In this document: one piece after another, positions 11,109-40,952 of the stretch
How positions within the stretch are numbered: position 1 is the first letter of the stretch
Layout: the number at the start of each line of letters is the position of its first letter
Assembly (NCBI RefSeq): GCF_031851795.1
Contig: NZ_CP134696.1
Coordinates: 4,794,501-4,858,500 of the forward strand
Length of the DNA: 64,000 nt
Source of the DNA: Pontibacter sp. G13
Lineage (GTDB): Bacteria > Bacteroidota > Bacteroidia > J057
Direction of reading: 5' to 3'
The notes under the pieces: model-generated
Databases searched by the model: none
The model's input: the letters and a program-made list of their open reading frames with translations, nothing else
What the model was told of the DNA's origin: nothing
Made by a program: the position numbers and the translations under genes

Positions 11109-12203
11109 CTAGGGACGTGGATAGTCCTTCGGGTCCATTTGCTGAATCCAGTCGTTGATCAGCTCGGCACTTTCTTTATGCACTACTTTTCGACCAACTT
11201 CGGGCATCATGACGCCTGGATCTTCGGATTCGATCCGGAGCATAAGGATAGAGGAATTAGGGTCTCCAGGAATGATATCGTAGAGCAGTCCACCAGAACC
11301 GCGACCAGCGGCCACAGGCGATTTGTGGATTCCCCAGATGTAGGGATCATCCTGATGGATGTCAAGGAAGAGTCCAGAAGTACTTGCTGGTCCGTGTTCA
11401 TTGTGACAGTGGGCACAGTTGATGTCCAGCCAGATTCTTGCACGCTCGTCGATGGAGCCTGTCGAAGGATCATCCCAAACGGGTGCTTTGGGGACTTTGG
11501 ACCAATCTTCAGGAAGATTGGTCATCATATTTTGAGCTTTCCAGTGTTCAAGTTGATTTTGGGTTCCGTGGGCAAAGGCATATTCCCCGTTGAGCTGTCT
11601 TGCGGAAGGACCAATCGGACGCATGGCGCCTTTGAAGGAGTGGCAACCTTTGCATTGGTTCTGATTGGGCATGACGTACTCTAACTTCTGCTTTTTACCC
11701 TTGCTGTCTTTCCAGGAGATCTGCTTTCTGCCGCCAGCTACTTCCAGATAGGCTTCTGTTTGGTCGTCATTCCAGTGATAGGGAACGGCTCTCCAGCCTG
11801 CTTCTTGGTGGATAAGCAGACGGGTTTCCAGCAATTGACGTCCTTTTTCTGGATTGCGCTCATCATGGGGATAGTAGAAAGTTTTGATCAAAACTGTACC
11901 GACTGGGAAATCCAAAACTTCATGGTCGTTAAAGTCCACAGATGCGCCTTCCGGTAGCTTTACAAACCGCTGTTTCCAGGCATAATCTGAAAAAAGCGGT
12001 GTGTTCAAGTCATAGGGAACCACGCCATTCACGGGGTCGAGCTGGGCCATTTCTCCCTGAAAAAATCCATAGTCGGATAGTTTCATGTGCACGCCCTCAG
12101 GGAGATCCTGTGGCTTTTCGGCAAATCCAACAATCAGGATCAGGACGGCACTCAGCGCCATCATTCTCAAAAGTGCCTTGGGTAACTTCATAGAACCGAT
12201 CAT
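11109..12203 (-). CDS. SO2930-family diheme c-type cytochrome
   Basis: A 364-residue exported protein with an N-terminal hydrophobic signal (residues 5-27). Two heme-attachment motifs, CKGCH (184-188) and CAHCH (263-267), and methionines near the C-terminus (ILMLRI, GVMMPEVG) are consistent with two c-type hemes. The family (TIGR03806 type) is known to occur beside a parallel beta-helix protein, exactly as here with the gene at 12272. It is probably periplasmic or surface redox. A second in-frame ATG at 12191 (MKLPKAL) is an equally good start. Substrate and electron partner are unknown. Confidence 0.88.
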   Translation of the reverse strand: MIGSMKLPKALLRMMALSAVLILIVGFAEKPQDLPEGVHMKLSDYGFFQGEMAQLDPVNGVVPYDLNTPLFSDYAWKQRFVKLPEGASVDFNDHEVLDFPVGTVLIKTFYYPHDERNPEKGRQLLETRLLIHQEAGWRAVPYHWNDDQTEAYLEVAGGRKQISWKDSKGKKQKLEYVMPNQNQCKGCHSFKGAMRPIGPSARQLNGEYAFAHGTQNQLEHWKAQNMMTNLPEDWSKVPKAPVWDDPSTGSIDERARIWLDINCAHCHNEHGPASTSGLFLDIHQDDPYIWGIHKSPVAAGRGSGGLLYDIIPGDPNSSILMLRIESEDPGVMMPEVGRKVVHKESAELINDWIQQMDPKDYPRP

Positions 12204-13726: not shown

Positions 13727-14326
13727 ATGGGCCGAAAAAGCATCGCTGAAATCCGGAGAAAAGAAATGTTGGAAGCGTTCTACGATTTGATCGTGGACGA
13801 AGGGATGGAAAAGGCTTCAGTGGCCAAACTCGCCAAGAGGATGGGCGTGAATGCCAGCTTGGTCATTCATTATTTCCAGACCAAAGATGCATTGGTGGGA
13901 GCGTTGATTGAGTATATGCTGAATCGCTATGAGCAAAAGTTTTTGCCGCTGCTCCACAGTCAAGATACTCCGGAACAGCGGCTTCAATGGGTGTTTTCGG
14001 CACTTTTCAGCAAAGAGTGGGATGAGGCGCAAGGAAGCATTTTCTATACCTGCCTTCCGCTGATTTTTAGGAATGAATCAGTCCGTCTCCAATACCAGCA
14101 TTTGTTTCAGCGCTTTAAGCGATACGCTGTCGATGAATTGGCTCAAGCTCGTGATGCTGGAATGATTCAGGTGAAAAACCTTGAACTTGCTGCTGATTTA
14201 TTGATAACCTGCCTAGAGGGATTCAATGTCTATGAGCGCATTCGGCAAGATGAGGCAGCATTCGAAGAGATGTCTCAAACCCTTCAAAGCGTATTGTTGA
14301 ATGCCTTCCAAACCGGTCTGGTTTAA
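13727..14326 (+). CDS. TetR/AcrR-family transcriptional regulator
   Basis: A 199-residue protein. The N-terminal helix-turn-helix covers residues about 10-55 (KEMLEAFYDLIVDEGMEKAS, then GVNASLVIHYFQTKDAL), the usual TetR signature. The C-terminal 140 residues are the helical ligand-binding and dimerisation domain, similar in layout to BetI-type members. It is transcribed divergently from the beta-helix/cytochrome pair, so it probably regulates them through the palindrome at 13647-13662. Its 3' end overlaps the convergent gene at 14323 by four bases, with no terminator between them. The ligand is unknown. Confidence 0.88.
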   Translation: MGRKSIAEIRRKEMLEAFYDLIVDEGMEKASVAKLAKRMGVNASLVIHYFQTKDALVGALIEYMLNRYEQKFLPLLHSQDTPEQRLQWVFSALFSKEWDEAQGSIFYTCLPLIFRNESVRLQYQHLFQRFKRYAVDELAQARDAGMIQVKNLELAADLLITCLEGFNVYERIRQDEAAFEEMSQTLQSVLLNAFQTGLV

Positions 14327-15069
14327 TACTTGAATTTCACCTTGATCAATTGAAATGCCTCTGGGGTGCCAGGTATGTAGCTTCCTTCCACTAACGGTCT
14401 AAAGGTCCATTGTCTCACGGCTTTATCTGTGATGATCCCCAGAAATGGAACGACCTCCTCTCCCGGAATTTTACCTTCGTAGTCATCGATCCATGCAATG
14501 CTGCCATCTGGATCTACCCGAAGATCTACCGATACGTAGCCGTGCTTGGTGGAACGATTCACCGGCCGTAGAAGCCGAATCGGTTTCCGATCTCCAAGTC
14601 CGGAAACCATGCACCTCCCATCCATCGAGAATAGCACTCCACTGCCTGCAAAATTGAATTGAATCAGTACCCGCATAAATTCCTCTACCTGGGGCATCTG
14701 AGGATTCAGGGGAGAAAATTTCCATTGCTTGACAGCTTCTCTGGCCGATTTTAGCATGTCTGCGTTGAGCCTTGTCACGGTGGACCGATCCAATTGAACG
14801 GAATTGACAGAACCACTTGGAAGGATTCCAATCCGAAATGAGATGAGTCCTACTTTTTGACCGACAAAGGCTGGAGGTGGGATTTCTAGTGGCTTACGTG
14901 TGAGGAAGCTGCTCCCATCCGCTCGGGTAAATGAGTAGAGCGTTTCGGGGTCCATCATGTTCATTCGCTCGAATTCATACTCCTCAGTTTGAGGAAATTG
15001 GAATCCTGAATGAATGAAAAATAAGACGCAAAGCAAGGAGCTTAGCAGGAAATGCCAGATGAAGCGCAT
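14323..15069 (-). CDS. Exported protein with two TonB-C-like domains
   Basis: A 248-residue protein with an N-terminal hydrophobic segment (residues 3-22) acting as signal or anchor. Two successive units resemble the TonB C-terminal fold: residues about 75-135 (GLISFRIGILPSGSVNSVQL ... VKQWKFSPL) and about 175-248 (YVSVDLRVDPDGSIAWIDDYEG ... VRQWTFRPL). Each ends with the same W-x-F-x-P-L pattern. No proline-rich linker is present, so it is unlikely to be a classical energy transducer and may be a soluble periplasmic relative. Its stop codon overlaps the end of the TetR gene. The function is unknown. Confidence 0.75.
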   Translation of the reverse strand: MRFIWHFLLSSLLCVLFFIHSGFQFPQTEEYEFERMNMMDPETLYSFTRADGSSFLTRKPLEIPPPAFVGQKVGLISFRIGILPSGSVNSVQLDRSTVTRLNADMLKSAREAVKQWKFSPLNPQMPQVEEFMRVLIQFNFAGSGVLFSMDGRCMVSGLGDRKPIRLLRPVNRSTKHGYVSVDLRVDPDGSIAWIDDYEGKIPGEEVVPFLGIITDKAVRQWTFRPLVEGSYIPGTPEAFQLIKVKFKY

Positions 15070-15180
15070 AGATCTTGGATTATGGCATGAAATTGATACT
15101 CAGCCGAGAGATTCCAAAATCGAGTCGAGTAACTGGTACTTTTTAGGAGACGATTGGGCAAAAAAAAGAGAGTAGGTACA

Positions 15181-15566
15181 ACTCCTATTGTTAAATGATT
15201 TTCCATTTGGAAAATCTGGAGTAATTACCAACTCTCCGTTATCTGTCGTTACAGATAACTATGTGGTGCTCGTACTGAGCTTTGGGTCAAAAGGCGGGAA
15301 TTGGAGGTACATGCCCATATCTGGTGTGCGTTTGATATGTGAAACATAATCCCAATTCCCAAATGTCTGAAGTATCAGACAGCGGTAGTTTATCAGAAGT
15401 GGCACATCAAAACTACCTGTGGATCTTTATGCAAATAACGTTTGGTCGAATGAGAGAGCTGACCTTGGTACTTGTAGGTGTGAGTAAAAAATTACTCACG
15501 TCCAACGTATCAGCTCTCTTGACCTGATCTTTCAGGTCGGTTTCCAGCTGGTATTGTTAGGCCAGC
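15181..15566. ncRNA. Hairpin-dense non-coding region, candidate structured RNA
   Basis: This 386-base stretch of the 546-base gap between 15069 and 15616 contains at least eight good hairpins. Perfect stems with 4-base loops are at 15197-15216 (8 bp, enclosed by ACTCC/GGAGT), 15238-15259 (9 bp), 15364-15381 (7 bp), 15480-15499 (8 bp, inside a 10-bp stem 15453-15462/15510-15519) and 15521-15538 (7 bp). Longer stems pair 15296-15304 with 15352-15360 (9 bp) and 15384-15391 with 15410-15417 (8 bp). A 5-bp stem lies at 15547-15566. I recognise no rnpB, tmRNA, 6S or SRP signature, and the strand is unresolved. Confidence 0.45.
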
Positions 15567-15615
15567 CTTATTACATGTATTAAGAACTGGATCATTTTTG
15601 GATTGTTTTTTCCAT

Positions 15616-16881
15616 TTACAAAAAAATCGAAAAAAATATTCCACCTGCCATAGCTGCGATGAGGGTGTTGGCGAAATTTACGGTGTCATTCGTCATGAGA
15701 CCATTGCGTTGAAGACTCGCTCCGAGCAGGGAATCCGCCAAATTGCCGATGATACCAGCTCCGATCACGATTCCGCAATACGCCCATTCACCCGAAAGAC
15801 CACAATATGCCACCGCGATGATGGCACTTGCCAAATACCCGACCAAGGAGCCCTCTAGGCTAATGACTCCATCAAGACCACGTTGCCCTCGTTTTCCATT
15901 TCTGAGATCCCAAAAGGATTTCCCCAGGATATTCCCGAGTTCCGAGGACCAAGTATCTCCTGCTGCAGATGCGATACTGCATGCCAGCATAACTTCCCAA
16001 ATTTGAGCCTGCTCTGGGAAGACCCAAGCAGTGAACCCACAGATCATGGCCGTCCCTCCATTGGCAAAGGCATGTCGGACAGATCGCTTGCCCCCCAATT
16101 CCTGCTCCAAGCCCAACGATTCTTTGCTCCGCTTTTTCCAGCTGGAGGCTCCCGTTCCCATGACAAAAAACAGAAACAAAAGCGCCAGTGCTGGCCATCC
16201 TCCTCCTAGAAACATGCCCATTCCAATCCATCCTCCAACAATAGCTCCCGGAAGATCAATCTTGCCTGATGCAATACTGGCTATGACAAATAGTACCATC
16301 AGGAGTATCACCCAGGGAAATTGAATCGGAAAAAAGAAACTGCCAGATGATAGCGCATAATATCCCCAAACGAAGGTGGCAGAAGCGCTCCATGACATTG
16401 CAAGGGGTTTTGAGATGATTCCATTGAGCCTTCCGATCCCGTAACCTATACTACTGCTGATAAGAGCCACGATGATGAGCTCGCGAATGGAAAGGAGTTG
16501 CTGGATATTCGAGTCAAAGCTGACCAGCCAACATACTCCACAGATCGCACCTGCCCATTGGATTAACCATCCCAAGGGTCTGGCTGATGGATGGGGCATA
16601 CCTGTTGAAATCATGCCCGCAAAACTCAAGCAGGTTCCTGTTACCAGTGAGAATCCCCACCAAGCAGGTTGAAAGAGACCAATCACCGACAGGCTTGCCA
16701 AGCTGGAGACAATCTCAAAAATGCCAAGCCGGAGGGATTGGGTGTTCCATCGAAATCCCAATAGTATCGCCAAAAAGGCCAATGTGGAAGCGGATAGCCA
16801 AAAGGAGGGAAGGTAGTTCAGCAATATCAATGGGGCCCAAATGGGAAGCAATAGTGCCCATTGCTTGGAAAAGGAGTTCAT
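15616..16881 (-). CDS. DUF92 (VTE6-like) integral membrane protein
   Basis: A 421-residue polytopic membrane protein with about 11-12 hydrophobic segments. The C-terminal half carries the DUF92 family signatures: AAGDTWSSELG, then RGLDGVISLEGSL, and GNLADSLLGA followed by NDTVNFANT. The plant member VTE6 is described as a phytyl-phosphate kinase, so an isoprenoid phosphate kinase role is possible but unproven in bacteria. The N-terminal 180 residues are a membrane extension of lower conservation. It stands alone and reads toward the hairpin-rich region 15181-15566. Confidence 0.88.
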   Translation of the reverse strand: MNSFSKQWALLLPIWAPLILLNYLPSFWLSASTLAFLAILLGFRWNTQSLRLGIFEIVSSLASLSVIGLFQPAWWGFSLVTGTCLSFAGMISTGMPHPSARPLGWLIQWAGAICGVCWLVSFDSNIQQLLSIRELIIVALISSSIGYGIGRLNGIISKPLAMSWSASATFVWGYYALSSGSFFFPIQFPWVILLMVLFVIASIASGKIDLPGAIVGGWIGMGMFLGGGWPALALLFLFFVMGTGASSWKKRSKESLGLEQELGGKRSVRHAFANGGTAMICGFTAWVFPEQAQIWEVMLACSIASAAGDTWSSELGNILGKSFWDLRNGKRGQRGLDGVISLEGSLVGYLASAIIAVAYCGLSGEWAYCGIVIGAGIIGNLADSLLGASLQRNGLMTNDTVNFANTLIAAMAGGIFFSIFL

Positions 16882-40768: not shown

Positions 40769-40952
40769 GGGCGCATCCCGGCGTCTTGGCATGGGAGTTC
40801 TCCCGAGAAGCTGAGTCGCCGGGTCAGTCCCGCTCCGTGGCTCGCTAGCGCTCGGTCTCGTATCTGGGGGCGAGATATCGCCGCCCCCAGATACGAGACT
40901 CCTCCCAAAGGTCGGACCACTCCGGGCACTTTGCGCCGCGGCAAGCCATCGC
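40769..40952 (-). repeat. Dispersed intergenic repeat, copy 4 (reverse orientation)
   Basis: It begins GGGCGCATCCCGGCGTC, directly continuous with the tandem array, and contains GTCGCCGGGTCAG, CTCCGTGGCTCGC and, near its end, GGTCGGACCACTCC and GCGCCGCGGCAAGCCATCGC. Its middle is replaced by a perfect 18-bp inverted repeat. It ends at the stop codon of the MFS gene, whose other side carries a forward copy. Confidence 0.6.
40855..40899. repeat. Perfect 18-bp inverted repeat
   Basis: GTCTCGTATCTGGGGGCG (40855-40872) and CGCCCCCAGATACGAGAC (40882-40899) are exact reverse complements around a 9-base spacer. No T-run follows on either strand, so it is not a standard terminator. Confidence 0.9.

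Follow-up and report, generated by a model that had tools for sequence, protein, structure and literature searches.

A hairpin-rich gap between two genes

What does the gap between the DUF92 gene and the TonB_C gene of Pontibacter sp. G13 contain, and could it give rise to an RNA? We addressed this question within a contiguous stretch of 64,000 nts (64 kb, hereafter the window), in which the two genes are separated by 546 nts. A sequence-only reading had described the gap as a gene-free region between a TonB-like and the DUF92 gene and had proposed it as a candidate new structured RNA. The gap is free of genes, and no ORF longer than 62 aa is listed inside the region. The eight nearby proteins scanned with Pfam comprise DUF92, TonB_C, TetR, Band_7, beta-helix/NosD, OMP beta-barrel, a THUMP-domain RNA methyltransferase, and one protein without Pfam match; none of these matches a reverse transcriptase or transposase family. 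A retron ncRNA was discarded, there being no adjacent reverse transcriptase gene among the eight flanking proteins.

The absence of any known-RNA signature, also part of the sequence-only reading, is borne out by two programs: no Rfam 15 family (rnpB, tmRNA, 6S, SRP, riboswitches, group I/II introns) is matched in the 64-kb window, and ARAGORN finds 0 tRNA or tmRNA genes there. A permissive-E Rfam search of 1 kb returned four weak matches far below threshold, none of them to rnpB, tmRNA, 6S, SRP, riboswitches or introns.

Predicted structure of the element

Folding delimits a structured element at about 15157-15567, 410-420 nts long and made of some ten hairpins (Table 1). The cluster had previously been placed at 15165-15580; it is indeed there, with a start that has to be moved, since the element reaches slightly beyond it. 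Pairing probabilities are at least 0.9 in most helices, the inner part of P4 lying partly at about 0.55. The fold holds 129 base pairs with a G-U share of 7%, as compared with 8% for the tRNA-Met array of the same genome.

Table 1. Predicted helices of the element and flanking genes, listed in the 5′ to 3′ direction of the minus strand (positions of the window).
Feature	Description	Position	Strand	Basis
DUF92 gene	integral membrane protein (PF01940); same strand, upstream of element	15616..16881	-	ORF; Pfam E 1.5e-43
P9	hairpin GGCUGG/CCAGCU, 6 bp, loop 10	15546..15567	-	pairing probability 0.93
P8	perfect hairpin, 7 bp, 4-nt loop	15521..15538	-	folding
P7	stem, 10 bp perfect (15453-15462/15510-15519), around perfect 8-bp hairpin 15480-15499 (4-nt loop)	15453..15519	-	folding
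Linker	little structure; weak predicted long-range pairs with 3′ tail, probability 0.2-0.5	15418..15452	-	folding
P6	stem, 8 bp perfect (15384-15391/15410-15417), 18-nt loop	15384..15417	-	folding
P5	perfect hairpin, 7 bp, 4-nt loop	15364..15381	-	folding
P4	long arm: 11 bp (9 perfect + 2 wobble), then 5, 2, 6 bp inner helices to CAUAUC/GAUAUG	15295..15361	-	folding
P3	small hairpin, 4 bp, loop 5	15268..15280	-	folding
P2	perfect hairpin, 9 bp, 4-nt loop	15238..15259	-	folding
P1	arm: 7 + 4 + 5 bp, small internal loops, cap = perfect 8-bp hairpin 15197-15216	15167..15237	-	-26.9 kcal/mol, z -4.9
U8	eight T directly past P1, intrinsic-terminator layout	15160..15167	-	sequence
TonB_C gene	TonB_C-domain protein (PF03544); same strand, downstream of element	14323..15069	-	ORF; Pfam E 4.5e-08

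The pairings on which the initial proposal was built hold in detail. The three longer stems (15296-15304/15352-15360, 15384-15391/15410-15417 and 15453-15462/15510-15519) are all perfect and correctly placed, and the five perfect hairpins with 4-base loops that had been counted are found at 15197-15216, 15238-15259, 15364-15381, 15480-15499 and 15521-15538. GATATG can pair in two ways, as had been claimed: GATATG 15334-15339 with CATATC 15316-15321 competes with TATGT 15336-15340 paired to ACATA 15344-15348. The linker 15418-15452 holds CCAAACGU, a possible pseudoknot partner of ACGUUGG in P7, picked as a candidate by eye.

P1 and P7 have similar arms (GAGAGUUGGUA and GAGAGCUGAUA), the corresponding segments being 15166-15179/15507-15520 and 15231-15237/15453-15462. 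This likeness lets each arm pair with the partner of the other, and it could reflect a duplication or a functional switch.

Comparison with chance and with the genome background

Within 416 nts lie the five perfect hairpins, whose stems measure 7-9 bp and whose loops all have 4 bases; none of 3000 dinucleotide shuffles contains more than two. In the genome sample, a 4-base loop is present in just 20% of the perfect 7-9 bp hairpins, and five out of five would occur by chance with a probability of about 3.5e-4. The comparison of folding energy with dinucleotide-shuffled sequence, which the sequence-only reading had called for, gave a strongly positive result: the region folds far better than its shuffles, none of which equals it, and z amounts to -6.8 for the plus strand and -9.2 for the minus strand. 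With other limits, z ranges from -5.6 to -6.8 (plus) and from -8.8 to -9.8 (minus), the value of -9.8 being that of 15157-15545 on the minus strand.

As a background we used 1.66 Mb (1.6 Mb of the same genome plus the window), which contain 185 gaps of at least 300 nts; gap z-scores were computed with 6 or 10 shuffles per gap and a crude gene model, so that the ranking is approximate. By z, the gap between DUF92 and TonB_C is fourth of the 185, and it is the only single-copy gap below z -7 in the 1.66 Mb. The folding signal is not generic to this genome, since only six gaps fall below z -7 and the other five are the tRNA-Met array (the strongest) and four multicopy repeats. The feature is real and unusual.

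Several repeats were recorded along the way. Seven near-identical tRNA-Met(CAT) genes form a tandem array that repeats about every 113 nts (L053:9885-10638; C1:29885-30638 of the same genome). One dispersed family of repeats has many copies, with identities of about 70-86% around the core GTGCTCGCT..CGCTCGGTCT, and is found in the window at 40814-40950 and at L088:6815-7198 and L116:8782-9330; several of its copies fold strongly. Another dispersed and partly tandem family with strong hairpins (GGTTCTCAGGAAGCCATTTTTGCAGGGCGTAGTGGGGCTACGGCC) occupies L110:6623-7613 and 11274-11998, with more copies in L114 and L093. At L111:13688-14011, intergenic palindrome repeats (CAGGGATTGAAATCCCTG, TGTCGTCCCTACAGGACTTGG) lie beside a duplicated terminator-like 14-bp hairpin. 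The element itself was rejected as a dispersed palindromic repeat of the REP/MITE type, being single-copy by BLAST of the whole genome and by covariance models. Two repeats, the 8-bp direct repeat AAAATCGA on either side of the region (15116 and 15623) and an 18-nt, 78% repeat, were considered as insertion marks and discarded: they are short and AT-rich, one lies within the DUF92 reading frame, and by our own estimate chance would produce one or two matches of this kind.

Likely strand, predicted terminator and search for a promoter

The sequence-only reading had named no strand. P1 ends in UUUUUUUU on the minus strand only, and both neighbouring genes lie on this strand. The 3′ half and tail of P1 (ACTCTCTTTTTTTTGCCCAAT) are near-identical to a hairpin with a U-run that follows tsf in the sister genus G010 (L009:1501-1546), where, judging by sequence, the two elements have the layout of a textbook intrinsic terminator. 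DUF92 has no other stem followed by a U-run ahead of P1. P1 escaped a scan for consensus terminators, in which loops were limited to 8.

The better z-score of the minus strand is a weaker argument than it appears, since the two strands differ little in minimum free energy (15157-15545: -131 and -129) and the difference in z comes mainly from composition: the shuffled plus strand, richer in G and T, folds better by itself. Taken together, P1 with its U8 run, the co-directional neighbours, the tail similar to the tsf hairpin and the better z make the minus strand the likely one for the predicted RNA.

For Bacteroidota, TAnnTTTG is reported as the -7 consensus (PMC7366714, PMC9723704). Its only exact occurrence in the surrounding 3.5 kb is TAGTTTTG at 15408..15415 on the minus strand, located inside P6 and with a TTG 16 nts upstream; a single box is below the 2.3 expected by chance in 3.5 kb. 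If this box were real, it would produce a shorter RNA of about 245 nts extending from P5 to P1. Overall, the region carries no clear or convincing promoter of its own for an independent RNA.

Search for relatives

The genus is represented by this one genome alone, the family by 13 genomes and the order by 22. When its own genome, 40 relatives and 395 phylum genomes were searched by BLAST, the region retrieved nothing but itself; searches of phage and plasmid DNA gave chance matches or none, and two viral scans with exact patterns had no match. For three domains, covariance models were built, and in the 22 order genomes each matched only its own source, as did the two that were run on 395 class genomes as well. 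Being derived from one sequence and its structure, such models have little power, and filters were stricter in the larger searches, so that a diverged relative could be missed. Conservation in relatives, another check that the initial proposal had named, found no support, as no homologue appears in any genome searched. The only match of low E-value (8.9e-5), the hairpin after tsf in G010, was rejected as a homologue, as it is a terminator-like hairpin and covers only the P1 tail.

The order DUF92 then TonB_C is kept in only one member of the family, the sister genus G007. There, the gap is 226 nts long and contains a U5 run and a stem that encloses hairpins, with an ordinary folding energy (z -1.1). 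In seven relatives, the tiles taken downstream of DUF92 show no unusual structure (z 0.4 to -2.2); several of them begin where the match frame has an early stop and extend over coding sequence, and only G007 constitutes a clean comparison. From the short gap of G007, with its stem, U5 run and ordinary z, it can be read that the terminator-like stem after DUF92 is common in kind to the two genera, while the additional structured sequence of about 300 nts is confined to one lineage.

Preferred reading and alternatives

From the sequence, the region from about 15567 to 15160 on the minus strand is best read as a structured RNA that either makes up a long 3′ UTR of DUF92 or is a small RNA derived from this UTR. 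Indeed, it lies past a co-directional gene (DUF92 stop at 15616) and ends in P1 and U8 (15160-15237), as expected for a 3′ UTR-derived sRNA by position. That it is a single-copy, lineage-restricted structured RNA of about 410 nts, which on the minus strand would begin where the DUF92 gene ends and reach a predicted terminator at 15160, is a model to which we give an even chance. The fold z, the five hairpins, the single copy, the tRNA-like G-U share, the stable P1 with U8 and the stem with U5 of G007 speak for it. Against it stands the lack of relatives, which leaves no covariation and no apparent sign of selection over time, together with the near-equal energies of the two strands and the want of a clear promoter. 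The proposal of a candidate new structured RNA thus gains from strong folding, single copy and the lack of Rfam, tRNA and tmRNA matches, and loses in that no homologue offers compensatory changes. On balance, the region, which has no known relatives, is a good candidate for a non-coding RNA and probably is one.

Since its own promoter is not convincing, transcription would enter the region by read-through from DUF92, and DUF92 transcripts would stop at P1 and U8. The array of tetraloop-sized hairpins may make the 3′ UTR stable, so that it persists as a small RNA or is processed into one. The unpaired linkers 15418-15452 and 15281-15294 might, by conjecture, bind a target RNA or protein.

Stems that are mostly Watson-Crick, strands that fold about equally and the lack of homologues are also what a cluster of DNA palindromes would present, derived from a decayed mobile element or from template-switch mutation and devoid of RNA function; the 226-nt gap of G007 would then suggest a gain in the present lineage or a loss in G007. 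On the other hand, simple hairpin-perfecting does not yield helices nested around 47-nt spacers, nor internal loops and the layout of a terminator. Furthermore, the region lacks other copies and convincing terminal repeats, none of the scanned flanking genes belongs to a mobile element, nothing both comparable and single-copy occurs elsewhere in the 1.66-Mb sample, and the G-U share is close to that of real tRNAs. We consider this origin unlikely.

The position of the U-run at 15160-15167, about 90 nts ahead of the TonB_C start codon, bears on another reading, in which the region would be a large structured 5′ region acting in cis on TonB_C, with P1 and U8 as a regulated terminator, similarly to a riboswitch or attenuator. 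The strand is shared, the terminator lies just ahead of the ORF, and the P7 and P1 arms can pair (GAGAGUUGGU with the P7 3′ arm, and 79% complementarity over 14 nts for the other arm); this pairing would open the terminator. However, forced folding puts the arm-swapped conformers 13-15 kcal/mol above the ground state, so that such a leader would depend on kinetic trapping or on a ligand that binds strongly. It would also have to be about 500 nts long, the same gene pair in G007 has no such leader, and no Rfam riboswitch is matched; we regard a leader as quite improbable. Finally, a plus-strand RNA starting near 15150, just before P1, and antisense to the DUF92-TonB_C transcript would have TACTTTTT at 15137, one base off TAnnTTTG, and a plus fold that is also strong (z -6.8), but it lacks a -33 TTG upstream of TACTTTTT and a good plus-strand terminator at the far end, its z is lower than that of the minus strand and some inner P4 pairs form on the minus strand only, which makes it very improbable.

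Relation to known RNAs and implications

UTR-derived sRNAs and intergenic sRNAs ending in a terminator are documented in Bacteroides, including GibS and the UTR-derived sRNAs of B. thetaiotaomicron (PMC7366714). The region is similar to these Bacteroidota sRNAs in that it follows a coding gene and consists of hairpins followed by a terminator-like stem and a U-run (PMC7366714). It differs from GibS in being longer and denser, with about ten helices as compared with two hairpins and a terminator (PMC7366714), a sequence relation having been checked by Rfam only. With GOLLD, ROOL and OLE it shares the presence of many helices in one gene-free stretch and an unknown function (PMC12286853). Those RNAs are defined by many conserved homologues, whereas the present region has no Rfam match and comes from one genome. 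GOLLD, ROOL and OLE also differ from it in size and host. For Bacteroides-2, a candidate RNA of a single organism, comparative evidence included environmental sequences (PMC2864571), whereas none was found here. The likeness to the tsf hairpin of G010 is limited to P1 and does not extend to P2-P9.

That the region is the founding member of a new class, a compact multi-hairpin bacterial RNA of about 410 nts with its own terminator and restricted to one barely sampled genus, is a doubtful but conceivable extension of the preferred reading. RNAs confined to a single sampled genus escape homology-based discovery, and folding statistics suffice to set this region apart, to about the same degree as a tRNA array. 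If it is not transcribed, a folding z near -9 can arise without an RNA, which calls for caution in the use of such statistics; if it is transcribed, long and dense non-coding RNAs can be confined to a narrow lineage.
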